Of a stretch of DNA of 27,243 bases, positions 4,769-21,551 are shown in pieces; the stretch's first letter is position 1; each line of letters starts with the position of its first letter. Source of the DNA: a virus; the IMG/VR virus record IMGVR_UViG_3300022934_000141, positions 1-27,243 of that record. One strand, written 5' to 3'. The notes below the pieces were generated by a model. It was given only the letters and a program-made list of their open reading frames with translations, ran no database searches and had not been told where the DNA came from. The position numbers and the translations under genes are program-made.

Positions 4769-4941
4769 TATGTTGTACTAAAAAACCACGCTCTACGTGC
4801 GGACTCTTCTAATGTATCTTGTGTGTATTGAGTATTCAACTGTTGTATCATTTCCTCTAATTGTCTGATTAATTCAGCAGCTTGCTGAGCATCGTACTCA
4901 GGTCTCGGATCTGGAAATCTTTGTAGGGTTAATTTGGCCAT
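4768..4941 (-). CDS. 57-residue helical tail-region protein
   Basis: A short gene beginning MAKLTLQRFPDPRPEYDAQQ and continuing with an amphipathic helix (about 18-40) rich in Gln, Glu and Leu, then ending RRAWFFSTT. Both ends are fixed by TAATG overlaps with its neighbours (4941 and 4768), a good sign that it is real. The N-terminal Leu-Gln-Arg-Phe-Pro plus PEYD pattern resembles small proteins I have seen after tail-tube genes in marine podoviruses. The helix could form a coiled coil. Function unknown. Confidence 0.75.
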   Translation of the reverse strand: MAKLTLQRFPDPRPEYDAQQAAELIRQLEEMIQQLNTQYTQDTLEESARRAWFFSTT

Positions 4942-5480
4942 TATTCTATATTACACGTCATAGATAATTTTGCATCACTTATTTCTACCACTTGATGCTC
5001 TGTAAATTTATCAAACCAAATACAGTCTTGATTGTCTAGCAGTACCTCTTTTTCATCGATTATCCATTTTGATTTACCCAATATGTTTTTTACAATTACT
5101 GGATAATCATGATGGTGTTTATCAAAAGAAATATCTTTCAATCCTTTGCTGAAATATAAATTACAATTTATGTTATTCTTATTAAAAGCACGATTTAAAA
5201 GCTGTTGAATTATCCAAGTGTCTTTACACATATTTCCTGAATTAGAAATAATTAAAGTGTATCCTTCTTCATAGAATTTAATGACTTTTTGTGAGTCTAA
5301 ATAACCATCCAGTAAAAAAAGATCTTCATAGTCTACATCAGCAATAACTTCAACAGTTCTTTGTTTCCAAGGATAAAACTTAGGCCATCTAAATCTATCT
5401 AACAGTCTTTCAAGAACATCATCTTCGGTAAGATTGATTTTTTTATTATGTATTGCTTGTATTAAATTATCTTCTACCAT
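4941..5480 (-). CDS. Cupin/JmjC-like Fe(II) oxygenase
   Basis: I place the start at ATG 5480 (MVEDNLIQA), which overlaps the nozzle gene by 14 bases; the longer reading frame would need TTG. The 179-residue protein has an N-terminal helical part and a C-terminal half resembling the metal-binding core of cupin/JmjC oxygenases: DKHHHDYPVIVKNILGKSKW (about 120-139) supplies H-x-D (H123, D125), and H162 in FTEHQVV is the likely third iron ligand. The G-K-x-K-W turn after the HxD matches JmjC-like cupin hydroxylases. These families hydroxylate protein side chains with 2-oxoglutarate and O2; the substrate here is unknown. It sits directly behind the tail nozzle gene. Confidence 0.65.
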   Translation of the reverse strand: MVEDNLIQAIHNKKINLTEDDVLERLLDRFRWPKFYPWKQRTVEVIADVDYEDLFLLDGYLDSQKVIKFYEEGYTLIISNSGNMCKDTWIIQQLLNRAFNKNNINCNLYFSKGLKDISFDKHHHDYPVIVKNILGKSKWIIDEKEVLLDNQDCIWFDKFTEHQVVEISDAKLSMTCNIE

Positions 5481-7296
5481 CTGGTTGTACGTCAAAACGT
5501 TGTGTGCCTAATCTCCAAGCAGTCCCTGTTGTGTTAGAAACAACATTAACTGTGAACTCCCTACCTCGACCACGTAAACTAACGAAGTCGGTTGTATCAG
5601 TGAATGTGGTTGTCTTTGTAACTCCGTTACTATTATTTGGATAATATTTAAATTCTAAATCCATGTTTAAAACACCAGATTGATTTTGAATATCTGGTAT
5701 TAGTTTTTGTACAAAAAGAATATCATTTCCCTCGCCTATCTCTACAGATCCAGATTTAACATAAGCAGTCATCGCTTGTCCGTCAGCATCATTCCCTGTT
5801 TCATGTAGGTAAGCTTGTGTTGCTCCATTAGTTAGTCCCAAAATTGTTTCATTGTTTGCAGTTGCGGTTGCATCATATTCTGTTCCAATAGGATTATCGT
5901 AGACTTCACGATCAATCCAAGATGTACGAGCTAAAGTTCCTGTCCACCAAGTTTGCTCTAAATAATTGTAAGCTACAATGGCATTAATTTGTGAGGAACC
6001 CTCTCTGGGGTAAAACCAAAGAACCTCATTAAACTCACCATTGTGTCCTGCGAAGGCATTCTCAGATGCAGTTTGATTAATATTATTAAATACAAACTGT
6101 TCTACGGTGCATGGTAGTTTTTTTACTGTACCATCAAAGAGATAAAAAGAATCCTGTGACATCCAATAGCTTACACCATTTAAATCAATGCCCGCATGAC
6201 TACCAATGATTCCACAGTTTTGACCTAACTGACGTAGACCAAAAGTAAATGGTGGACCAATAAATTGCATCGAGTGTAGTGAGGTGTCTGTCCAAATCAA
6301 TATTTGACCTCTAGAACGTTCTGCTGCCACGATCCGTGATCCGTCGGCAATGCGTAGTGAACCAGCAGTATTCTCTGCTGTTGGTTGATACGTTGTTATA
6401 TTTTCTTGATCAGAAAAACGAATGAGTAAATCATCTTGAGAACTTGGTGTACCAATTGTATTTTCAGTTCCCATAATTACTAGGTGTCGATCAGGTGTAG
6501 AAACTAAACTTAATCTTGAGGCAGTGGGTGCATTAGCTACAGCACTTGCTCTTGTGGAAACTCCTACAGAAGTATCCCATTGATATGTGCCACCGTTTAA
6601 TTGAGTAGCAATTAAATCTTCACCAAAGTTGTCTAAAGACCATTGTCTTGCTTCTAGTGTTACGTTAGAAACTGTTGAAGGAGATCCCCAACCTCCCGCA
6701 CTCCAATCATCTGTACCCCAACCATAAGCGGGAACAGAAAACTCTGGACCAGGATTGATTTGATAATTAGCATTACCTGTTCCTCCTCCACCTGCGGTTG
6801 AACCACTAGCAGTGTCGGTATGAGTAATAATATAAGCAGAGGTGTTTACTACTGATGTTACTTCAAACTCTTGATTCATATCTAAGCCATCAATTGCTGA
6901 GAAAGAATCAAATGTCACAAAACTTCCTTGAACACAACCGTGTCCTGAGTCTGTGACTAATACAGAGGTTGTTGCGTTGGTTGTAAAAGGATCTGTAAGA
7001 GAGGTGGGTCCTCTTCTAATAGGAGTAATATCATAGGCTAAGCCTTCTTCTAAAACATATAATTTTCTATCCGTGCCAATTGCATCATATCTTGTGCCAT
7101 CTAAAGCTACCCAAGCGTGTTGATCACGAGCCACGCCCACCAAAGTGGTAGAAATAAACTTCTCCCATCCTTTGATCTTTTGTGGCAATCCTTGAAAAAA
7201 GCGTACATTATCACCGTCTGTCCACTTGCCTTCGCCTGTGTAGTCGGTTACTTCTTTATTGATGCCTGGTGCTGGTCTAAAATTAACTAATGGCAT
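5467..7296 (-). CDS. Tail nozzle/tail tubular protein B-like
   Basis: A 609-residue protein from ATG 7296 (MPLVNFRPAPGINKEVTDYT); the frame extends five codons to a TTG but the ATG gives the family-like start. Features typical of P22 gp10 or T7 gp12-type nozzle proteins: NVRFFQGLPQKIKGWEKF near the N-terminus, beta-propeller-like repeats with LVIMGTENTIG, and ILIWTDTSLHSMQFIGPPFT followed by G-LRQLGQNCGIIG in the middle. A Trp-Gly rich segment (YGWGTDDWSAGGWG, about 192-205) resembles motifs in the structural protein at 13978-14934. It probably forms the distal tail tube of a short tail. It is separated from the oxygenase gene upstream by an AT-rich hairpin. Confidence 0.75.
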   Translation of the reverse strand: MPLVNFRPAPGINKEVTDYTGEGKWTDGDNVRFFQGLPQKIKGWEKFISTTLVGVARDQHAWVALDGTRYDAIGTDRKLYVLEEGLAYDITPIRRGPTSLTDPFTTNATTSVLVTDSGHGCVQGSFVTFDSFSAIDGLDMNQEFEVTSVVNTSAYIITHTDTASGSTAGGGGTGNANYQINPGPEFSVPAYGWGTDDWSAGGWGSPSTVSNVTLEARQWSLDNFGEDLIATQLNGGTYQWDTSVGVSTRASAVANAPTASRLSLVSTPDRHLVIMGTENTIGTPSSQDDLLIRFSDQENITTYQPTAENTAGSLRIADGSRIVAAERSRGQILIWTDTSLHSMQFIGPPFTFGLRQLGQNCGIIGSHAGIDLNGVSYWMSQDSFYLFDGTVKKLPCTVEQFVFNNINQTASENAFAGHNGEFNEVLWFYPREGSSQINAIVAYNYLEQTWWTGTLARTSWIDREVYDNPIGTEYDATATANNETILGLTNGATQAYLHETGNDADGQAMTAYVKSGSVEIGEGNDILFVQKLIPDIQNQSGVLNMDLEFKYYPNNSNGVTKTTTFTDTTDFVSLRGRGREFTVNVVSNTTGTAWRLGTQRFDVQPDGRR

Positions 7297-7310: not shown

Positions 7311-7339
7311 ATAAAATCTAAAAGAAAACTAGATTTTAT
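7311..7339 (-). repeat. AT-rich perfect inverted repeat at oxygenase stop codon
   Basis: ATAAAATCTA (7311-7320) and TAGATTTTAT (7330-7339) form a perfect 10-bp stem with a 9-base loop. The stop codon of the upstream oxygenase gene lies in one arm. No T-run follows on the minus strand, so it is not a classical terminator. It may stabilise or process the mRNA, or attenuate weakly before the nozzle gene. Confidence 0.55.
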
Positions 7340-7908
7340 GTTTTATCTAATGCCTCATTAAGAAAATTAAAAGCGACTGATATTCTATCAAATTTACATT
7401 CTACTACAGAATGGTATAAATATGCAGGGAAAAGGATCAAAGTGCCTTTTTTTTCATTAATTTTTTGATTTTCTATTTGTGTAAAGTTTCTATTTATATT
7501 TTCGACATCCCTATTATTATGAAATAAAAGATTTCCCTCACCTGGTTTTAAAATTAAAACACCACAAAAATCAGCGCCTATATGATTATGCAAGTTTGCA
7601 AAGTCTCCTTTTTCATAAAAATTTATCCAGGCCTCATATGCTGCCCAATTGTTATATTTCCAGTTTTGACTTTCTCCTATCTTAGGCAACAAAGTTTGAG
7701 TAATTAATAACTTTATTTCATCTAGCTCTTCATATTTTCCTAAACCATTCCAACCTGTGGTTTTAGCTTGAACATTTCTTAATCCTTTTGTCCAAGTATC
7801 TTTGTCAACCATGACTTTTTCTATCAATTTATCACATAATTGATCATCAATTTGAGTATGAAAAATAGTTACAGGGAACCAATTAACAAGGTGAATATTA
7901 TAATTCAT
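7336..7908 (-). CDS. 2OG-Fe(II) oxygenase, TIGR02466-like
   Basis: A 190-residue protein with the pattern of the putative 2OG-Fe(II) oxygenase family TIGR02466. WINFYEKGDFANLHNHIGAD (about 94-113) gives the first iron-ligand motif as H107-x-H109 rather than HxD, followed by CGVLILKPGEG; LFPAYLYHSV gives H166; FDRISVAFNF gives R175, which should bind the 2-oxoglutarate carboxylate. The N-terminus VNWFPVTIFHTQI is also typical. The start overlaps the glycosyltransferase stop by 11 bases. It closes the run of four consecutive modification enzymes before the nozzle gene. The substrate is unknown; a fibre or glycan substrate is inferred from context. Confidence 0.75.
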   Translation of the reverse strand: MNYNIHLVNWFPVTIFHTQIDDQLCDKLIEKVMVDKDTWTKGLRNVQAKTTGWNGLGKYEELDEIKLLITQTLLPKIGESQNWKYNNWAAYEAWINFYEKGDFANLHNHIGADFCGVLILKPGEGNLLFHNNRDVENINRNFTQIENQKINEKKGTLILFPAYLYHSVVECKFDRISVAFNFLNEALDKT

Positions 7909-8716
7909 TTATCGTTTCATTTTTTTTAGCAAATAAAGAGCCAACATGGCCTTTGAAAGCTCTATTTCCGAAGTGAGTTAAAGGCATGGCAACATCCGCC
8001 CATATCTCTCCACCACACTCTTGCCATAGCCTTGAGAAATAGTAATCCTCCGATAAGTATCTTTTCTTCCCGTTGGTTTCATAAGGACCAACAGAAAACA
8101 AATCATAGCAATTATCGGAACTAAAAGATTGACCATTAATGATTTGATCTGATTGATACTTTCGCTCTGGAAACTTTTTCATCATAGTGCGAAACACTTC
8201 TCTTTTAACAAGCATCATCCCTGTCGCCGCTTCTGATACTTTACAAAAACCGTTTTCCATTTGAACATTTTTAGGATCATCAAAATTAAGGTTATACCCT
8301 AATGATTTTACTTCTATTTCATCATCACTTGCGTTGGGGTTTTCTTTTAATACTTCTCTAATTTTTTCAAAATGAACATGTTTACGAGGATAAATACCAC
8401 ACACTACATCTTTATCTGCACATAAAAGTCTTTCAATATTTTGTGCTGAAAAACCTATATCAGCATCAATAAATAATAAATGAGTAGCAACATAATCTTT
8501 TTGATCCATCATCATGGAAACAATGGTATTTCTGGCTCTGGTAATTAAGCTTTCGTTACCCATGGTTTGAACTCTCATTCCAACTCCTTTAGCCATGGAC
8601 CATTGTTGTAATTGTAATAATCCATGCATCGTATTTTCAGTAAGCATCCCGCCATACATAGGCATTCCTAAAAATATTTTAAAATTTTTATCTTTTAGTT
8701 CTTCTGGCTTAATCAT
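7898..8716 (-). CDS. GT-A fold glycosyltransferase
   Basis: A 272-residue protein. The N-terminal FKIFLGMPMYGGMLTENTM segment, ESLITRARNTIVSMMM and LLFIDADIGFSAQNIERLL (DxD-type motif D84-A-D86) match GT-A glycosyltransferases that bind nucleotide sugar and a divalent metal. Later VVCGIYPRK and the C-terminal LSEDYYFSRLWQECGGEIW, with the E-D pair as likely catalytic or acceptor-site residues, support this. No membrane segment is visible, so it probably acts in the cytoplasm. The start is ATGA-coupled to the sulfotransferase-like gene and has an excellent GAAGGAGATATC leader. It likely transfers a sugar to a phage or host molecule; donor and acceptor are not evident. Confidence 0.75.
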   Translation of the reverse strand: MIKPEELKDKNFKIFLGMPMYGGMLTENTMHGLLQLQQWSMAKGVGMRVQTMGNESLITRARNTIVSMMMDQKDYVATHLLFIDADIGFSAQNIERLLCADKDVVCGIYPRKHVHFEKIREVLKENPNASDDEIEVKSLGYNLNFDDPKNVQMENGFCKVSEAATGMMLVKREVFRTMMKKFPERKYQSDQIINGQSFSSDNCYDLFSVGPYETNGKKRYLSEDYYFSRLWQECGGEIWADVAMPLTHFGNRAFKGHVGSLFAKKNETINEL

Positions 8717-9381
8717 GATATCTCCTTCTCATAGAAATCTATAATTTCTTGGGGTACTTTACTATTGATATAATCAATTTGTTTATTAGTCAATTTTGTT
8801 GTCTTGTTTTCTAAGTAGTCTTTCTTTCTTTGATCAAAAGAATTATCTGTTTGAGAAACTCGGTAATCAACATTATTGGTAAAAAGTGTCCATTGTGATG
8901 ATTTCTTTAAAAGATTTAATTTACTTTCAATGTTACTTAATATCTCAATAGCACTTGGTTGTTCTAACATTTTTCTCTGATTCATAATAACAAAGTTACA
9001 ACGATGAGAAAACTTTATCCATTCTGTGTGAAACTCAATCCATTTATCAATAGCCATTGGAATACTAAATTTATACAAAGCGTTTTCCCACAATAAATCT
9101 TCATCATGATAATCTGGGTATTTTGCTAGTCCCCAACGATTAATGAAGTCCACATCATTTCTAATAATACTTTCCATCCACATTAAAGGAGTTTTGTAAC
9201 AAAGAATGACAGGACTATCTTGTGTTAAATGAGAAGTAGCTTTATCTGCATTAGGAGTATGTTTCCAAGACCAATGACCAAAGTCATTTATGTTTCCCCA
9301 ATCAGCACTGAAGTTATGTTCTATAATTCTCCTTGCAAAATTAGTGCAAGTCCTTTGAATTCCAAAGGTATAAAATTTCAT
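8713..9381 (-). CDS. Sulfotransferase-like P-loop protein
   Basis: A 222-residue protein whose N-terminus FGIQRTCTNFARRIIEHNF (residues 6-24) resembles the 5'-phosphosulfate-binding loop of PAPS-dependent sulfotransferases (P-R-S-G-T-x-x-x type). VILCYKTPLMWMESIIR (about 58-74) fits the 3'-phosphate-binding strand and helix. The C-terminus is helical and Lys-rich. The expected Arg in the second motif is replaced by Lys/Thr, so assignment is moderate; another P-loop kinase or transferase is possible. It overlaps both neighbours (TAATG at 9381, ATGA at 8713), placing it between an oxygenase and a glycosyltransferase, as expected if sugars are sulfated. Confidence 0.6.
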   Translation of the reverse strand: MKFYTFGIQRTCTNFARRIIEHNFSADWGNINDFGHWSWKHTPNADKATSHLTQDSPVILCYKTPLMWMESIIRNDVDFINRWGLAKYPDYHDEDLLWENALYKFSIPMAIDKWIEFHTEWIKFSHRCNFVIMNQRKMLEQPSAIEILSNIESKLNLLKKSSQWTLFTNNVDYRVSQTDNSFDQRKKDYLENKTTKLTNKQIDYINSKVPQEIIDFYEKEIS

Positions 9382-9983
9382 TATTTATATTCTTCGCCTA
9401 AACAACTGCGCTTATCAAATTTATATTCTTTATAAGGTCCTTCTTGATCAACATAATGTAGAAAAACAGTGATGAAATGATCATGATTACATGTTTCTCT
9501 CCAATGAATCTTTTCCATTCCTTGAAATATTAAGGCATTATTAGGAACCATAGGAAACTTATGTTCTATTCTATATCTTTTGTATTCTCCTTTATTGTTG
9601 TAGTATTTATAATCAGATTGATTGTCTTCTTCTCCTACAAAAATTTCATACGGTTGATTAATTGGATCTGCTCCTAAACACAAAGCAACACTATACTCAC
9701 AAGAAGGTCTGTCCTTATGTATTTTTAAATCAGAACCTTTATCATATACTCTTAAATAAGAGTAAGTGGGCCATAGTTTTTTTCCAACGTTTTGTTCAAT
9801 AATAGGAGTGCTCATATCCATAATAGTTTCCATGAGATTATCTCCGTGAGAACTAACCAAAGAATTTGATTGAGAATCAATATTAAATTTTTTTTGATTA
9901 GAAAATTTTAAAATAGAATAAGAATAACAAATATTTAAAATATCTTGAGGTAGAAATTCTTTTATAAAAATTGGTTGCATCAT
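9381..9983 (-). CDS. Divergent 2OG-Fe(II) oxygenase
   Basis: The start chosen is ATG 9983, which overlaps the previous stop as ATGA (an upstream GTG at 9992 is the alternative), giving 200 residues. A double-stranded beta-helix core is suggested by YLRVYDKGSDLKIHKDRPSC with iron ligands H89-x-D91, then SVALCLGADP, NNALIFQGMEKIHWRE with H160 as third ligand, and FITVFLHYVDQ as the last strand. The Arg normally found about ten residues after the distal His is not seen; R162 may substitute. It is a paralogue-like partner of the oxygenase directly upstream. Substrate unknown. Confidence 0.65.
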   Translation of the reverse strand: MMQPIFIKEFLPQDILNICYSYSILKFSNQKKFNIDSQSNSLVSSHGDNLMETIMDMSTPIIEQNVGKKLWPTYSYLRVYDKGSDLKIHKDRPSCEYSVALCLGADPINQPYEIFVGEEDNQSDYKYYNNKGEYKRYRIEHKFPMVPNNALIFQGMEKIHWRETCNHDHFITVFLHYVDQEGPYKEYKFDKRSCLGEEYK

Positions 9984-10528
9984 ATTACCCACCCTATTAA
10001 AGCGTATCTTATTCCTTTAGTTATTTTATTCACTTGATGTGGAAACATAAAATTTGATGGAAAAATAACTGCATCTCCTATATTTTGAGGAACAACATAT
10101 TTACCAGAAGGTAAATCAAAAACAAATTCTCCTCCTTCATATTCATTGTTTAAACAAATAGATATAGATAAATGCCTTTCACTTACCTTATCCCCAAAGT
10201 CTTGATGAAAATCATATCCCGCTTTGTATTCATTAAATTCATATTTTAATATATCAAGTTGAGATATTCTACTTATGTCTATATCATATCTGTTTTTATA
10301 AGCAGAAACACAAGTAAATATTTTTTCTTTAATAGCGTTTGAACATATTTTTTCACCAAAAGTTTTTGTTTCCAAAATACTTCTAGTTACACAATTTCTA
10401 ACATTTTTATTTACATCTGGTGAACCAACAGTCAACGCATCATTATAACTATGATCAAAATAATTAATTATTTTTTCACAAAAGATAGATGGAATTGCTT
10501 TTTTAATTTCTAAAATGTATTCTTTCAT
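9980..10528 (-). CDS. 2OG-Fe(II) oxygenase, prolyl 4-hydroxylase type
   Basis: A 182-residue protein with a complete prolyl-4-hydroxylase-like signature: AGYDFHQDFGD (H108-x-D110), RHLSISICLN, YEGGEFVF, GDAVIFPSNFMFPHQV (H164) and GIRYALIGWVI (R174, the 2-oxoglutarate anchor). This family hydroxylates protein or other substrates using Fe(II), 2-oxoglutarate and O2 in the cytoplasm. The start has no Shine-Dalgarno sequence but follows a run of A residues 19 bases after the preceding gene. It opens a block of four or five enzymes inserted between tail fibre genes and the nozzle gene. Confidence 0.8.
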   Translation of the reverse strand: MKEYILEIKKAIPSIFCEKIINYFDHSYNDALTVGSPDVNKNVRNCVTRSILETKTFGEKICSNAIKEKIFTCVSAYKNRYDIDISRISQLDILKYEFNEYKAGYDFHQDFGDKVSERHLSISICLNNEYEGGEFVFDLPSGKYVVPQNIGDAVIFPSNFMFPHQVNKITKGIRYALIGWVI

Positions 10529-10536
10529 TTTTTTTT

Positions 10537-10566
10537 ACACAGAAAACTTAGTAAGTAATACTGTGT
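10537..10566 (-). repeat. Nested inverted repeat at gene boundary
   Basis: ACACAG (10537-10542) pairs with CTGTGT (10561-10566), and between them lies a near palindrome ACTTA-G-TAAGT. It spans the stop codon of the small fibre-associated gene and the gap before the first oxygenase gene. No T-run follows on the minus strand. It could be an RNA structure at the boundary of the enzyme block or a chance AT-rich repeat. Confidence 0.35.
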
Positions 10567-10982
10567 GCAGTAAGGTAATCATCCCTCGCTGTGTTCGCAG
10601 TTGATGTAGCATTTGCTTGAGAGTCTGCGTCTCCCGCCATAGCATTATCATAAGCTGTTTGCCAAGCATCTTGAGCCTCACATCTTATTACAACATTAGT
10701 TGCCCATTGAGGAAAAGAAGATAGAGATTCATTTGCTCTATTATCAATGTATTCTAACTCTCCAGTATTAGTTGTAGCATTCCATTGTAGTGCATGAACG
10801 TTAGCATCAATTTCAGTGTGAGATCGAATATTAAAATATGATTTATTATCAACAATAACATCAGACTCAGTGTTGCCTGTGCCTAATCTAGGCCCATTAT
10901 TTTCATTTTCAGGATTTATACCTGAATCAAAAATTATTGTAATTCTTGAATTTGCAGTTGTGTTATTTACTGTTGTTGTCAT
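10548..10982 (-). CDS. Small tail fibre-associated/assembly-like protein
   Basis: A 144-residue acidic protein. The N-terminal half is beta-rich (SRITIIFDSGI, SYFNIRSHTEIDANVHALQW) and the C-terminal part (about 95-144) is a helical Ala/Asp/Gln-rich tail with WQTAYDNAMAGDADSQANAT. A beta domain with a terminal helical tail, following directly after a fibre gene, recalls tail fibre assembly or tip proteins, but no family is certain. The start overlaps the upstream Cys4 gene by 20 bases and has an AAGGAA ribosome binding site. Confidence 0.7.
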   Translation of the reverse strand: MTTTVNNTTANSRITIIFDSGINPENENNGPRLGTGNTESDVIVDNKSYFNIRSHTEIDANVHALQWNATTNTGELEYIDNRANESLSSFPQWATNVVIRCEAQDAWQTAYDNAMAGDADSQANATSTANTARDDYLTAHSITY

Positions 10983-11400
10983 CTTTTTTTCCTTTCTTTA
11001 CTTTTATCTTATTATTACTTAATTGTCTAATAGTTTCATCTTCCATTTTAGGATCATTTTTTTCAATTGCTTTTTGATGATTTCCTATTAATTCAAATAT
11101 ACTAGCTGCATTCATCGCTAAATTCTTTGCGGAATCACTTCCCTGTAATAATTTATTCATAGCGTTTTGAGATTTAACCATTTCATTTCTAAAAGATTCG
11201 GTGGCCGCTTGAGTTCCTTGAATGTGTTTCGCATTTTCGACCATCAATAATGGCATCCAAGCTATAGAACACCCCCATTCTTGAACTGCTTGACCTGTTT
11301 GAGGGTGTGCTCCTTGAAGCATGTTATACCAAATACATTGATGTTTAATACACTTCTTATTAAGAAGTGGACACTTCCCATCGGGATCAAATATAGGCAT
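10963..11400 (-). CDS. Cys4 protein of fibre locus, conserved in marine phages
   Basis: A 145-residue protein with a striking N-terminus MPIFDPDGKCPLLNKKCIKH, then QCIWYNMLQG, and a fourth Cys in EWGCSIAWMPLL. Cys10, Cys17, Cys22 and Cys44 could bind zinc or an iron-sulfur cluster. The remainder is helical and ends in a highly basic, Lys/Asn-rich tail. I recall near-identical N-termini beside fibre genes of uncultured marine phages, without a known role. The start overlaps the fibre gene stop (TAATG at 11400), suggesting stoichiometric coupling to the fibre. Confidence 0.75.
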   Translation of the reverse strand: MPIFDPDGKCPLLNKKCIKHQCIWYNMLQGAHPQTGQAVQEWGCSIAWMPLLMVENAKHIQGTQAATESFRNEMVKSQNAMNKLLQGSDSAKNLAMNAASIFELIGNHQKAIEKNDPKMEDETIRQLSNNKIKVKKGKKDDNNSK

Positions 11401-12476
11401 TAATCTTTGTTAGCGACGATTACGTTAGCGTATTTAATATCCATTGCTGGAACGGATATAGTTCCTGTTAAAGAAGAAGAATCTACACTGAAAGGGTGTG
11501 AGTGAGATCCACCACCTCCTGCTGGATTAACAACACCCCCTTGATTTTGCTGGGGGTTTCCACCTGTGTTAATAGGTACTTTAGAAGTACCAGGTGGTCC
11601 TGGATTAACTGTATTTAGACCATGAGCGTGAGAAGCAATTGTTGGAGTCGAAAGAGTTGTTCCTCCTACTGTACCCGAGACAGAAACACCTGCGTTTGCG
11701 TTATCAGTATTTTTTGTAGATACAAAAGTTGAATAAAAAGAATCTGAACCACCTGTACCACCACCAGTTCCTGTGACGATTGACATTGCAGTGTTGGCTA
11801 AAGCTGTACCTGTTTGTTTTGTCCAGCCTGTAGGAGCAGAAGCTTGATTAAAAATCATTGAGGTGTTGGCTTCAAAAGGATCAACACCTGTTAGCCCCGC
11901 ACCATTACCTGTATATGAAGTAGCAGTAACTAATCCATTTGCGTTTAAAGTAATAGCAGAGTTGACATCAATACTTTTACCAGAGGCAACAGATACGTTA
12001 TCCTGGAAAGAGGCAGCTCCTGTTACGTTAGCTGTTCCCTTAACTGAAAGATTACCTAGAGAATTTGCAAAGAGGTCAACAACAGTGTCGCCAGTGCAAT
12101 ATTGAACTGTGTGTGCACCTTGAGTGATAGCTACACCATTTGCACCATGTCCTGTTGGAGCAACGGTTAACGTAAATGCTCCAGAAGTATTATTAAAAAA
12201 TATATAGTTGTTTTCAACCGCAGGTATAAATACGGTGATATCACCTGTTAAAGTTCCTGTAAATTCAATGACTTTGTTAGAAGATTCAGCATTTGGATCA
12301 GCATTGGCAGTTGTCAATGTGACGTTTGCAGATCCCGCAACAGATTTAGATAAATAACCTGCGTTAAAAGCATCTAATGTTTCTAAGTTTGTATTGGTAT
12401 TATTTCCCCATGTATTGGCGTTAGCGCCTGTCTCCATGAGTTCGAGTTTGAGTCTATCTGAATATGTACTTGCCAT
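11400..12476 (-). CDS. Tail fibre protein with collar-like C-terminal domain
   Basis: A 358-residue protein. The N-terminus SDRLKLELMETGANANTWGN is a virion-attachment module that I recall from many marine phage fibres. The middle has Val/Thr/Asn-rich repeats, including NLSVKGTANVTGAASFQDNV and SYTGNGAGLTGVD, typical of trimeric beta-fibres. From about 205 onward APTGWTKQTG starts a collar-like domain with Gly-rich loops and the His-containing motifs IASHAHGLNT and GSHSHPFSVD, which in collar/T4 gp12-type tips bind metal ions. It ends with IKYANVIVANKD. It is the likely receptor-binding fibre. An AGAGG ribosome binding site precedes the ATG. Confidence 0.8.
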   Translation of the reverse strand: MASTYSDRLKLELMETGANANTWGNNTNTNLETLDAFNAGYLSKSVAGSANVTLTTANADPNAESSNKVIEFTGTLTGDITVFIPAVENNYIFFNNTSGAFTLTVAPTGHGANGVAITQGAHTVQYCTGDTVVDLFANSLGNLSVKGTANVTGAASFQDNVSVASGKSIDVNSAITLNANGLVTATSYTGNGAGLTGVDPFEANTSMIFNQASAPTGWTKQTGTALANTAMSIVTGTGGGTGGSDSFYSTFVSTKNTDNANAGVSVSGTVGGTTLSTPTIASHAHGLNTVNPGPPGTSKVPINTGGNPQQNQGGVVNPAGGGGSHSHPFSVDSSSLTGTISVPAMDIKYANVIVANKD

Positions 12477-12508
12477 GTTTTAAACCTCTTTAAAATATAT
12501 CTTTTTTA

Positions 12509-12534
12509 ATACACAAAACAACTATTTTGTGTAT
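12509..12534 (-). repeat. Perfect hairpin enclosing carbamoyltransferase stop codon
   Basis: ATACACAAAA (12509-12518) and TTTTGTGTAT (12525-12534) make a perfect 10-bp stem with a six-base loop that contains the TAG stop (12522-12524). The RNA continues with A-rich rather than U-rich sequence, so factor-independent termination is unlikely. It sits 33 bases upstream of the tail fibre start and may protect a message end or modulate translation. Confidence 0.5.
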
Positions 12535-13970
12535 ATACCATCCCCTATAACTAATACATCTGCTTGTGAATTGTCAAACATAAATATAGCTTGTTTTTTT
12601 GTGCCTACAATTGGTTTTCCGGGTATATTTAGAGAAGTGTTAATCAGCACAGGATACCCTGATAATTTTTCAAATTCTTTTAATAACTTTAAAAATGTAG
12701 GATTATGGTCCTTATCTACGGTTTGAATTCTGCATGTTCCATCTGCGTGAGTAATATTTTTAAATTTTACAGGATCTTTTACTTTTGCTTGATATAACAT
12801 CCAAGGACTTTCATAATCTAAATCAAAATAAGTTTTATAAGTATCAGTAGGAACACTCGCTCCATAAGGTCGAAACCATACTCTCTTTTTTACTTTATCG
12901 TTGATTATTTCTTTTGCATTAGCAACGCAAGGATTCATGAGAATAGAACGAAAACCTAACGCTCTTGGTCCAACCTCTCCCCACCCTTGTCCCCACATAA
13001 CTAATTTTCCATCATATAAAAGCTTAGCAACCTTCTTTATTGTTTTTTGACTAGCAAATCCAAAATTTTCATCATGTTGATGTAAATTTTTAAAATTTAA
13101 TTTTGTTCTTATTCTATGTAAATTTTTTAAACCGTAAATTAATGCTCCTATCGAAGTTCCTTCATCTCCACAATGAGGAGAGGGTTCAAAGTTTGGATAT
13201 TCATTTTTTATTAAGGTGTTTAATATAATGTTTTCTCCAACCCCTCCAGTCCCAGAAAAAAATTGATTTTTATCAAAATATTTTTTTAAAATATTTTTTA
13301 TTTTTTTAAACCAATAAAAATGTAAGGAAGTAACGTAGTTATTACACTTTTCTGTGTGGTCTTTCCCTGTATCTTTTTTTAAAAAATCAAAAAAACTATC
13401 ACTGTATCTATTTTGAAATTGAATTGATATTTTTTCAGAATAATCTTTACCAAACGCAGATAAAGCCATGCAATGCCCTGCATGACTAGAATGACTTTCT
13501 TGACTCTCATCTAAAAACCAAATTTTCCATAAATGTTGAAGCACCTTTCCAAGACTATAATTATTAAATGTAAACAATTTTTCTTTTATTTTATGTTTTT
13601 TAAAAATAGATAAACAATCATGTTGACTTCCTGTGTCATCCAAAACAATAGAATTTAAATTAGATGTGCTATGGTGATGACACTCATGATGGTCAACAAC
13701 CATTATTCTTTCTCTGTTTGGAAAAGTATTAGACGATAAATTAGGTAAAATATCTGAACAGTTTACCAAAAAAATAGAAATTATATCTTCTAAACCATAA
13801 TTTAAGTAATTTAAATATTTTATCCAAGAAGTTAAATCATCGTGACACTGCCATTTTACTCCTGTAATTCTTTCAAATTTTAAATATTTAAATTCTTTTG
13901 TATCTAAATCATACGTAGCGATACTACCATCATGATAAAAAAGGTGAAGACCTATTACTATTCTTTTCAC
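12522..13970 (-). CDS. Carbamoyltransferase, NodU/CmcH family
   Basis: I place the start at GTG 13970, seven bases after the previous stop, giving 482 residues that begin KRIVIGLHLFYHDGS, the usual N-terminus of this family; the frame could extend to 14024. Recognisable parts: VDHHECHHHST (about 92-102, metal and phosphate site of the Kae1-like domain), DDTGSQHD, SSHAGHCMALSAFGK, FFSGTGGVGEN (about 237-247) and the C-terminal GWGEVGPRALGFRSILMNP (about 329-347) with FRPYGASV. These enzymes move a carbamoyl group from carbamoyl phosphate, via a carbamoyl-adenylate, to a hydroxyl of a sugar or nucleoside. Placed between two structural genes, its acceptor may be a fibre glycan or a modified DNA base. 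All core motifs appear intact. Confidence 0.85.
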   Translation of the reverse strand: MKRIVIGLHLFYHDGSIATYDLDTKEFKYLKFERITGVKWQCHDDLTSWIKYLNYLNYGLEDIISIFLVNCSDILPNLSSNTFPNRERIMVVDHHECHHHSTSNLNSIVLDDTGSQHDCLSIFKKHKIKEKLFTFNNYSLGKVLQHLWKIWFLDESQESHSSHAGHCMALSAFGKDYSEKISIQFQNRYSDSFFDFLKKDTGKDHTEKCNNYVTSLHFYWFKKIKNILKKYFDKNQFFSGTGGVGENIILNTLIKNEYPNFEPSPHCGDEGTSIGALIYGLKNLHRIRTKLNFKNLHQHDENFGFASQKTIKKVAKLLYDGKLVMWGQGWGEVGPRALGFRSILMNPCVANAKEIINDKVKKRVWFRPYGASVPTDTYKTYFDLDYESPWMLYQAKVKDPVKFKNITHADGTCRIQTVDKDHNPTFLKLLKEFEKLSGYPVLINTSLNIPGKPIVGTKKQAIFMFDNSQADVLVIGDGIYTK

Positions 13971-17731: not shown

Positions 17732-17851
17732 TCATTTAGCGGCAAAAGGACAAGCAGGAAAACCGATATGTTTGTTCATTGGTTCTAAGACAGTCTTAGA
17801 CCAGTTAATAACGTCTTTTTTTATTTCTTCAGCTTTTCTTTTTCTTGACAA
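17732..17851 (-). pseudogene. N-terminal fragment upstream of in-frame TGA
   Basis: From TTG 17851 the frame reads SRKRKAEEIKKDVINWSKTV, then LEPMNKHIGF and PACPFAAK, stopping at TGA 17734-17732. After five sense codons the same frame continues into the 149-codon segment. The W-x-x-x-V and C-P-F-A motifs are the expected start of the same family, so this is the broken front half of one gene. It overlaps the DUF5872-like gene upstream by 23 bases. One base (TGG to TGA) would restore continuity. Confidence 0.6.
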
Positions 17852-18086
17852 ATGTTTTTACCATTGTGGGTTTACCTCCAGGATTACCTGCGGCTCTTTT
17901 ACGTCTGACTGCTGAAGCTTTCTGACCTTTTGTCATACTTCTTGCTTTTGCAAGCGGAACACATTTTGGATATTTTCTTTTAGAACCTTTAGAACGTCCA
18001 CAAGGTTGATATTTACCGTCTTTTTTAGGAGCACCAATATCTACCCATTTCTCAGCTACCCATTTACGTAAACCACCCTTAGCCAT
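17829..18086 (-). CDS. Basic DUF5872-like protein
   Basis: An 85-residue protein from ATG 18086, which overlaps the preceding stop (TAATG); an upstream in-frame ATG at 18134 would add an unlikely leader. It reads AKGGLRKWVAEKWVDIGAPK, then QPCGRSKGSKRKYPKCVPLA and AVRRKRAAGNPGGKPTMVKT. This pattern is what I remember as DUF5872, small basic proteins found in phages and other large viruses. Two Cys flank a Lys/Arg-rich loop, perhaps a metal or DNA-binding knuckle. Function unknown. Confidence 0.75.
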   Translation of the reverse strand: MAKGGLRKWVAEKWVDIGAPKKDGKYQPCGRSKGSKRKYPKCVPLAKARSMTKGQKASAVRRKRAAGNPGGKPTMVKTFVKKKKS

Positions 18087-18346
18087 TAGAATTTCTGCGT
18101 AACTTTTCTTTTTTCTTCCATAACAGCACCACAACCTTTTGCAATACCACCTTGATCATAACTAGAAATCTTTTTTCTTTGCTGAGAGATAGATCCTCCA
18201 TTGGCTTTTTTCTTTACCTTCTTCTTCCCTCCTGGAGTAACTTTTCCTGAACATACAGCACTTGCATACATATTTGCATAAGCTGATGGGTACACTTTAA
18301 ATTTCCTCTTAGCGGCCGCTTTACCTCTTGCACATAATTTACCCAT
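18086..18346 (-). CDS. Basic conserved phage protein MGKLCARGKAAAKRK
   Basis: The start at ATG 18346 is supported by GAGGAG seven bases upstream; a longer frame from 18418 gives a non-conserved leader. The 86-residue protein begins MGKLCARGKAAAKRKFKVYP, then SAYANMYASAVCSGKVTPGG, a Lys-rich linker, and ends YDQGGIAKGCGAVMEEKRKV. Three Cys and very many Lys are evident. I recall this N-terminus as highly conserved in marine phages. It probably contacts DNA or RNA, or is packed in the virion; no function is established to my knowledge. Confidence 0.75.
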   Translation of the reverse strand: MGKLCARGKAAAKRKFKVYPSAYANMYASAVCSGKVTPGGKKKVKKKANGGSISQQRKKISSYDQGGIAKGCGAVMEEKRKVTQKF

Positions 18347-18482
18347 CTTGTTTCTCCTCGTGTTCACAGACTGCGCACTCACACATACAAGTTTGCTCGC
18401 AGTGACAAGTACATCCACATTTTACACATTGCTCCATCATTGACTCACACTTTATGCAAAGCTTATCACAGCCATCACACAT
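18339..18482 (-). CDS. 47-residue protein with 13 cysteines
   Basis: This small frame runs from ATG 18482, immediately after the TAA of the preceding gene, to TAA at 18339, overlapping the next gene start by 8 bases. The 47 residues contain 13 Cys at positions 2, 5, 9, 12, 19, 22, 24, 26, 28, 32, 34, 36 and 39, in CxxC and CxC spacings, plus His at 27 and 41; the C-terminus is charged (EHEEKQDG). The spacing resembles metallothioneins or multi-zinc knuckles. The precise fit between two coding neighbours supports reality. Zinc, copper or iron-sulfur binding is inferred. Confidence 0.65.
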   Translation of the reverse strand: MCDGCDKLCIKCESMMEQCVKCGCTCHCEQTCMCECAVCEHEEKQDG

Positions 18483-21266: not shown

Positions 21267-21551
21267 TTAACATCTCCAACGTTTACGAGCTTGTCTTAAT
21301 CTTGAGTTAGGATCTTTTGCAGCTTTGGGAAATTTTTTCATTTGTCCTGCTGATCGAGCGCAAAAAGACTTTCTTCTTTTAGCAGCCTTACTTCCAGGTT
21401 TTACCTTACCTGTAACAGCAGTTTTTAGTTTAGAACCAGGATTCTCTCGTCTATAACGAGCGACACCTGCTTTAGTCATTCCCGCTCCACTTTTAGTGGA
21501 ACGGAAATATTTTTTTGTTTTAGGTGGTTGCTTGTCAGCTTTCCTAGTCAT
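21267..21551 (-). CDS. Highly basic DUF6321-like protein
   Basis: A 94-residue protein with more than a quarter Lys/Arg. It reads KYFRSTKSGAGMTKAGVARY, RRENPGSKLKTAVTGKVKPG, SKAAKRRKSFCARSAGQMKK and ends RQARKRWRC. The AGxTxxGxxxYRRxNPGSxLK...RRKSFCARxxG pattern is what I recall as DUF6321 in phages. Two Cys near the C-terminal half. The charge suggests binding to nucleic acid, perhaps in the virion; not established. The start overlaps the preceding stop by 8 bases. Confidence 0.75.
   Translation of the reverse strand: MTRKADKQPPKTKKYFRSTKSGAGMTKAGVARYRRENPGSKLKTAVTGKVKPGSKAAKRRKSFCARSAGQMKKFPKAAKDPNSRLRQARKRWRC

Follow-up and report, generated by a model that had tools for sequence, protein, structure and literature searches.

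The 27,243-base virus record IMGVR_UViG_3300022934_000141, referred to here in its entirety as the window, is probably a fragment of a larger genome and comes from an HTVC023P-type pelagiphage, a member of a group of marine podoviruses of SAR11. Its tail-fibre locus includes two adjacent genes, oxyA and oxyB, for predicted 2-oxoglutarate (2OG)-Fe(II) oxygenases, along with several other small enzymes. We find that, among relatives of this phage, the oxyA and oxyB genes are inherited with the variable tip of the tail fibre and not with the structural backbone, a pattern that points to, without proving, chemical finishing of the fibre by the phage itself. Judging from the gene sequences, we propose with moderate confidence that the enzymes most likely modify the phage’s own fibre proteins, with substrates and reactions that we can only infer. 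Decoration of the virion was one of several options offered in a preliminary description of the window, and it is now a leading interpretation on the basis of how the enzymes are woven into the fibre locus and of the co-inheritance of oxyA and oxyB with the tip.

Co-inheritance was evaluated for 42 dereplicated loci by comparing pairwise distances in Spearman/Mantel tests with permutation. The fibre gene, the two genes that follow it (s145 and s144), oxyA and oxyB are correlated with one another (0.52-0.82), and each pair subjected to permutation gave p 0.0002. Taken over the fibre tip, s145 and s144, the rank correlations of oxyA and oxyB span 0.43-0.82. Values for oxyA are 0.72 with the fibre, 0.72 with s145 and 0.76 with s144, and those for oxyB are 0.52, 0.73 and 0.82, respectively (p 0.0002). 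No correlation (-0.09 to 0.07) was observed between either gene and the nozzle, the repeat protein or g14953; for oxyA and oxyB, respectively, r is 0.07 and 0.05 with the nozzle, and -0.04 and -0.09 with the repeat protein. The s145 and s144 genes reach 0.30-0.35 with the nozzle, and s145 belongs to the co-inherited fibre-tip module.

The fibre protein itself consists of a conserved N-terminal part that tracks the backbone and a variable C-terminal tip. Its last 150 amino acids correlate with oxyA at 0.70 and with the nozzle at -0.16, whereas for its first 110 amino acids the corresponding values are 0.09 and 0.51. Given that the tip tracks oxyA and the N-terminal anchor tracks the nozzle, the boundary between the two inheritance blocks lies inside the fibre gene. 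Moreover, adjacency is insufficient to create such a correlation, because the repeat protein gene adjoins that of the fibre and yet the two correlate at only 0.10. The glycosyltransferase-like gene GT follows the backbone, not the fibre, with values of 0.50-0.53 for the nozzle, repeat protein and g14953, and weak values for oxyA (0.14) and oxyB (0.07). Fibre type likewise influences which accessory genes are present. Mutual information between fibre type and accessory content is 2.03 for genes located before GT (0.86 +/- 0.12 when shuffled) and 2.52 for genes located after it (1.08 +/- 0.15 when shuffled).

The assignment of oxyA as a prolyl-hydroxylase-like enzyme is suggested by profile comparisons with the Protein Data Bank (PDB), where the nearest solved structures are protein hydroxylases: a PKHD-type hydroxylase (E 1.6e-11), prolyl-4-hydroxylases (P4Hs; 1.5e-7) and a mimivirus lysyl hydroxylase (1.9e-4). 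Among 44 aligned relatives, the Fe(II) triad (H108-x-D110 and H164) is invariant, as is R174, which occupies the expected 2OG-binding position at H164+10. The oxyB protein, which yields no Pfam match, carries invariant H92-x-D94, H163 and R165 residues in 46 aligned sequences, although R165 falls at H163+2, compared with the usual 2OG-ligand position near +10. An AlphaFold2 (AF2) model of this protein has a predicted local distance difference test (pLDDT) score of 91.6, and the best 50 Foldseek matches listed from the PDB all belong to the 2OG-oxygenase superfamily (probability 1.00), with Pseudomonas putida P4H ranked first and prolyl hydroxylases among the best matches. We therefore predict that oxyB is also a 2OG oxygenase.

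Homologues of oxyB were recovered from 149 phage records by tblastn, and the family bears the name ferrochelatase in PHROGs and isolate records as well as, according to the text available, in PMC9599517. This identity is not supported for oxyB: there is no match to the Pfam ferrochelatase family even at E<=1, and the predicted fold is that of a 2OG oxygenase. The proteins of P-RSM4, S-RIM44, HTVC008M and HTVC033P that are annotated as ‘ferrochelatases’ also retain the HxD...H pattern, and in cyanophages and pelagiphages the name seems to be a misannotation of a 2OG oxygenase that has been passed on for a long time. If the family is indeed an oxygenase, then the pairing of an oxygenase with a ferrochelatase ‘partner’ described in PMC9599517 most likely represents two oxygenases.

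The minus-strand gene order of the window runs from the capsid through adaptors, repeat protein and fibre to the nozzle (Table 1). The preliminary description had placed six enzymes of the given families in the fibre locus, and all six are open reading frames (ORFs) located at, or a few bases from, the positions it reported. Searches of Pfam, PHROGs and the PDB agree with the families proposed, but only weakly so for ST. Its claim that the genes from 10528 to 7336 overlap stop-to-start is likewise confirmed by the measured junctions: oxyA and oxyB share ATGA, and the overlaps are 1 nt for oxyB/ST, 4 nt for ST/GT and 11 nt for GT/oxyC. Further upstream, FIB and s145 share 1 nt, s145 and s144 overlap by 20 nt, and a gap of 19 nt separates s144 from oxyA. 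Since this tight run already begins in the fibre genes, the enzymes do not constitute an operon apart from the fibre. The frame FIB-s145-s144-oxyA-oxyB-...-GT-...-NOZ, or a variant thereof, was found again in approximately 70 contigs, and this recurrence rules out a chance assembly. The enzyme genes are richer in AT than their neighbours, with GC contents of 0.26 for oxyA and 0.29 for CARB versus 0.41 for both the fibre and the major capsid protein. A promoter scan gave no excess of sites (52 versus 56.2 in shuffles); terminator-like sites number 11 versus 5.8 expected, a count that we report without interpretation.

Table 1. Genes of the tail-fibre locus in the window, in minus-strand order.
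Gene	Coordinates	Strand	Assignment	Evidence and remarks
CARB	12522..13970	-	NodU/TobZ-type O-carbamoyltransferase, 482 aa	GTG start, 8 nt past the repeat-protein stop; occupies the repeat-protein/fibre slot
FIB	11400..12476	-	Tail fibre	phrog_12796 tail fiber protein E 7.8e-5; phrog_31104 E 4.3e-21
s145	10963..11400	-	Conserved fibre-region protein, four Cys	Homologues directly 3' of tail-fibre genes in P-SSM2 and CRP-361; Mantel tests
s144	10548..10982	-	Probable tail-fibre assembly protein/chaperone	Position matches tail-fibre-assembly proteins of P-SSM2 and CRP-361
oxyA	9980..10528	-	P4H/PKHD-type 2OG-Fe(II) oxygenase (predicted)	Pfam 2OG-FeII_Oxy_3 E 5.6e-13
oxyB	9381..9983	-	2OG-Fe(II) oxygenase (predicted); ‘ferrochelatase’ in marine phage annotation	phrog_2954 E 1.4e-36
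ST	8713..9381	-	Distant sulfotransferase-like protein (tentative)	Chain of distant relatives
GT	7898..8716	-	GT-A glycosyltransferase (probable)	phrog_34859 glycosyltransferase E 4e-8; phrog_1574 (unknown function)
oxyC	7336..7908	-	2OG-FeII_Oxy_5 oxygenase, accessory	Pfam PF13759 E 2.3e-10; phrog_81 E 1.3e-27
NOZ	5467..7296	-	Nozzle-like tail protein (name from the preliminary description)	ATG start at 7296; backbone anchor for comparison
Cupin-like gene	4941..5495	-	Cupin/JmjC-like putative oxygenase	Directly after nozzle; sub-threshold matches to Cupin_2 (E 0.005) and JmjC_2 (E 0.018)

Scans of viral contigs with CARB, ST and the nozzle yielded approximately 110 loci, whose gene orders were read from hidden Markov model and BLAST classes. 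Gene frequencies were taken from 30 dereplicated complete fibre-to-nozzle intervals recovered through the nozzle scan, which involves no selection for enzymes. Pfam matches and invariant-residue checks were accepted as evidence for an oxygenase; matches to a loose HxD regular expression were not counted. The shared frame consists of the repeat protein, a slot, one to three fibre copies, s145, s144, oxyA, oxyB, a slot, GT, a slot, the nozzle, a slot, g4409, a slot and g4112. The oxyA-oxyB pair comes after the fibre genes, and oxyB lies directly 3' of oxyA in 35 of 36 upstream occurrences of oxyA. Across the 30 intervals, GT is present in 30, oxyB in 29, oxyA in 25, CARB in 5, oxyC in 3 and ST in none. 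Each interval carries a mean of 3.9 oxygenase-type genes (span 1 to 6), and the slots contain approximately 25 oxygenase clusters at 35% identity linkage. For 15 accessory clusters the representative exceeds a Pfam cut-off for 2OG or JmjC domains, and the remaining clusters retain an invariant metal-ligand pattern. Eight non-orthologous oxygenase types have already been reported for this lineage in PMC9599517.

The slots also hold DUF6065 proteins, methyltransferases and a second type of carbamoyltransferase. Examples include S-adenosylmethionine-dependent methyltransferases of family PF13578 in or beside accessory slots (L042:14002-14601 and L016:8491-9075) and a 237-amino-acid DUF6065-like protein (cluster c5; L039:11568-12281 and 30 others) that is found before GT or after the nozzle depending on fibre type. 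The second carbamoyltransferase type shares 30-33% identity with CARB and is located after the nozzle in four loci (L079, L087, L088 and L091) and between oxyB and GT in two (L049 and L105). In three loci (L058, L059 and L022, the last being HTVC027P) the fibre-region oxygenase genes are flipped to the opposite strand; HTVC027P gp73 is named as an oxygenase in a transcriptome paper on that phage. The isolate HTVC023P carries homologues of oxyA, oxyB and GT. The GT homologues of HTVC023P (L021, gp77-gp78) and HTVC027P (gp80-gp81) are approximately 31-34% identical to GT and lie after g4112, beside another glycosyltransferase and away from the nozzle.

The preliminary description had inferred one combined pathway in which a residue is hydroxylated and glycosylated, and the sugar then sulfated or carbamoylated, and had itself held that independence of the enzymes in relatives would speak against this. 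Such independence is what we observe. CARB, ST and oxyC appear, vanish and change slots: the gap separating oxyB from GT houses ST in some phages, whereas others carry ST past the nozzle, and CARB can occupy either of these two places or a position ahead of the fibre. In addition, oxyC is usually absent and GT is constant. We therefore abandon the single fixed pathway in favour of three layers, supported by these patterns: GT as the fixed component, an oxygenase pair matched to the fibre, and a set of interchangeable tailoring enzymes.

On this basis, the locus may be viewed as the region in which an HTVC023P-type pelagiphage matures its fibre. The fibre genes would be translated in a tightly packed run together with oxyA and oxyB, and the two oxygenases would then hydroxylate residues in the tip of the fibre or in its partners s145 and s144. 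The universal GT could add a sugar to a conserved part of the virion, and the slot set of this particular phage (CARB, ST, oxyC and the cupin-like protein) might attach additional groups, either to the protein or to its sugar. Over time, phages would trade whole fibre-tip modules with the matching oxygenase pair, and refill the nearby slots with other small oxygenases.

Several observations weigh against this proposal. The Mantel and information tests are uncorrected for shared ancestry, and linked genes could be swapped as one recombination block without acting on each other. Within the window’s own fibre type (T1), the coupling is gone, with correlations of 0.01 between tip and oxyA and -0.06 between tip and oxyB. 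It persists between fibre types, inside T2 and largely inside T3, and the matching of tip and pair is thus to be read at the level of fibre type. Some fibre modules (L064, L097, L108 and L111) lack oxyA and oxyB upstream of GT. Collagen-like Gly-X-Y repeats, the classic target of prolyl and lysyl hydroxylases, are absent from the FIB sequence when read directly. Finally, no proteomic data on virions of these phages emerged from our examination of the literature.

Alternatively, the enzymes could act on host surface glycans during infection, for receptor masking or superinfection exclusion, with GT and the carbamoyl-, sulfo- and methyltransferases tailoring a host polysaccharide and the oxygenases hydroxylating sugars or lipids. 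None of the 30 complete intervals lacks GT, which tracks the backbone rather than the fibre, GT, CARB and ST represent typical glycan-tailoring families, and relatives add PF13578 methyltransferases in or beside the same slots. However, the genes reside within a run of structural genes, the accessory set varies with fibre type, no genes for sugar-nucleotide or polysaccharide synthesis were seen nearby, and oxyA resembles protein hydroxylases. We consider this explanation unlikely.

We assign a similarly low likelihood to an action of the oxygenases on host proteins or metabolism, such as translation factors, ribosomal proteins or 2OG levels. The P. putida P4H that is the top fold match of oxyB has also been solved in complex with EF-Tu, and one accessory family matches JmjC_2, a family that includes ribosomal oxygenases. 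Roles of this kind have earlier been proposed for cyanophages, and those in 2OG/nitrogen metabolism and DNA repair appear in PMC3037559. Host targets nevertheless leave unexplained why oxyA and oxyB alleles track the tip and not the backbone, and why approximately 25 families rotate at one virion locus.

Less likely still is that the recombining fibre region is simply a hot spot that gathers small genes of little or mixed function, such that co-inheritance reflects linkage only. The many slots with high turnover, the AT-richness of the enzyme genes and the missing coupling inside T1 are all compatible with cargo of this type, but a single fold strongly predominates in the slots, most clusters examined have invariant metal ligands, and oxyB and GT are retained in 29 and 30 of the 30 relatives, respectively.

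The preliminary description also raised DNA modification, wherein an oxygenase would hydroxylate a base, GT would glycosylate it, and CARB or ST would decorate it; this we regard as very improbable because no member of the thymidylate-synthase family, to which base hydroxymethylases belong, was found in a search of 12 relatives or isolates (positive controls matched, and the window’s own genome is incomplete), and the oxygenases are P4H-like. A search for TET/JBP-type oxygenases (0 of 12) was uninformative since no control genome gave a match either, and it was not used; oxyA, oxyB and oxyC have no TET_JBP Pfam match. Some HTVC023P-type clades are known to carry hypermodification genes (PMC9599517), but those of this lineage are located elsewhere, near the DNA polymerase gene.

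The remaining genes of the locus are assigned with varying certainty. CARB has a C-terminal YrdC-like domain (Pfam PF16861 Carbam_trans_C, E 9.5e-53; TobZ in the PDB, E 7.8e-29) and a possible N-terminal Kae1-like domain whose PF02543 match (E 3.3e-4) falls below the cut-off (20.6 bits versus 24). The metal-type motifs DHHECHHH and GDEGTSIGA are present, other PDB matches include GdmN, and phrog_1601 (Nol-like carbamoyltransferase) matches at E 2.5e-108 over residues 23-500 of a longer ORF. A link between CARB and fibre type T1 is not claimed (unbiased set: 3 of 12 versus 0 of 18; p 0.054), and a count of 12 of 28 was not used because the CARB-based scan biases it.

The GT protein is a probable GT-A glycosyltransferase, as judged from the DADIGF DxD motif (D84, D86), E223-D224 and H248, which are invariant in 24 aligned sequences. 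Its profile has a sole PDB match below E 1 (A197, 2c0n, E 0.019), an archaeal virus protein of the GT-A type.

ST could not be established as a clear sulfotransferase, since Pfam, NCBIfam, PHROG and PDB profile searches with ST alone all remained below significance and its AF2 model (pLDDT 74) gave no Foldseek match in the PDB or BFVD at E<=0.001. It is linked via relatives to proteins with sub-threshold Sulfotransfer_3 matches (best E 8.8e-5). The loop expected to bind 5'-phosphosulfate reads RTCT in most ST proteins and NTHT in L005, versus the expected R-[ST]-G-T. We retain the tentative name because distant relatives carry an RSGT loop, although they too score below the family cut-off, and because sulfotransferases make up six of the top seven matches in the PDB profile search, albeit all at E>=0.4.

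The cupin-like gene is likely a seventh enzyme gene of the locus that was absent from the preliminary description. Its protein matches phrog_29157, a family of unknown function (E 3.3e-33), and HxH...H...K is invariant within its cluster. The s144 protein has a short motif in common with CRP-361 gp41 (E 3e-5). The fibre tip has HxH motifs (SHAH and SHSHPF) that recall the metal-binding tips of T4-like fibres and might conceivably have a link with iron chemistry. Elsewhere among the structural genes, small Lys/Arg-rich proteins are encoded at 17829-18418 and 21267-21551 on the minus strand, and these are possibly DNA-binding or packaged.

2OG-Fe(II) oxygenases abound in the marine phages that infect cyanobacteria and SAR11, and what they are for has been debated since at least 2010. 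The core oxygenase pair is now tied to the tail-fibre tip, at a virion locus where approximately 25 oxygenase families turn over. The question of purpose can now be reduced to a search for hydroxylated or glycosylated fibre proteins in cultured HTVC023P (on HTCC1062). A more speculative and rather doubtful extension is that the fibre tips of these phages, among the most abundant in the ocean, are diversified by exchangeable sets of dedicated hydroxylases, with a particular oxygenase pair accompanying each tip type, and by a rotating stock of additional oxygenases and tailoring enzymes that alter the surface chemistry of the tip, thereby varying receptor binding post-translationally.

The same families are found in the clusters of the T4-like cyanophages and pelagiphage P-RSM4, S-RIM44 and HTVC008M, where a 2OG oxygenase, the ‘ferrochelatase’ T4-GC 615 and a carbamoyltransferase often lie side by side near tail or fibre genes. 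Cyanophage P-SSM2 has the same order of fibre, s145 homologue, fibre-assembly protein and 2OG oxygenase; in P-RSM4, fibre-region genes are followed by a carbamoyltransferase, an oxygenase and a ‘ferrochelatase’; and HTVC008M, HTVC033P and S-RIM44 carry oxygenase runs with a ‘ferrochelatase’. These clusters have been interpreted in terms of 2OG/nitrogen signalling and DNA repair (PMC3037559) or of iron and heme (PMC9599517), and the text available of these two papers contains no test of a link to fibre type, as conducted here. Because the ‘ferrochelatase’ family is a predicted oxygenase, the proposed heme link loses its basis.

CARB resembles NodU and TobZ in its strong YrdC-like C-terminal match and Kae1-like N-terminal metal motif, but it is shorter and its N-terminal domain scores below the Pfam cut-off. 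The oxygenase pair resembles P4H/PKHD-type hydroxylases (PiuC/YbiX, P. putida P4H and PHD2) in its double-stranded beta-helix homology and HxD...H...R site, with the oxyB Arg at H163+2, and differs in being virally encoded in a fibre locus. Mimivirus L230, a lysyl hydroxylase/glucosyltransferase, and other collagen-modifying enzymes (e.g. PMC9546862) likewise join a viral 2OG oxygenase and a glycosyltransferase for action on fibrous virus proteins, and the oxyA profile reaches the L230 hydroxylase domain (E 1.9e-4). However, the mimivirus system is a fused enzyme with a collagen Gly-X-Y substrate, whereas the pelagiphage locus, known from its genes alone, has separate small enzymes, several oxygenases and no collagen repeats.

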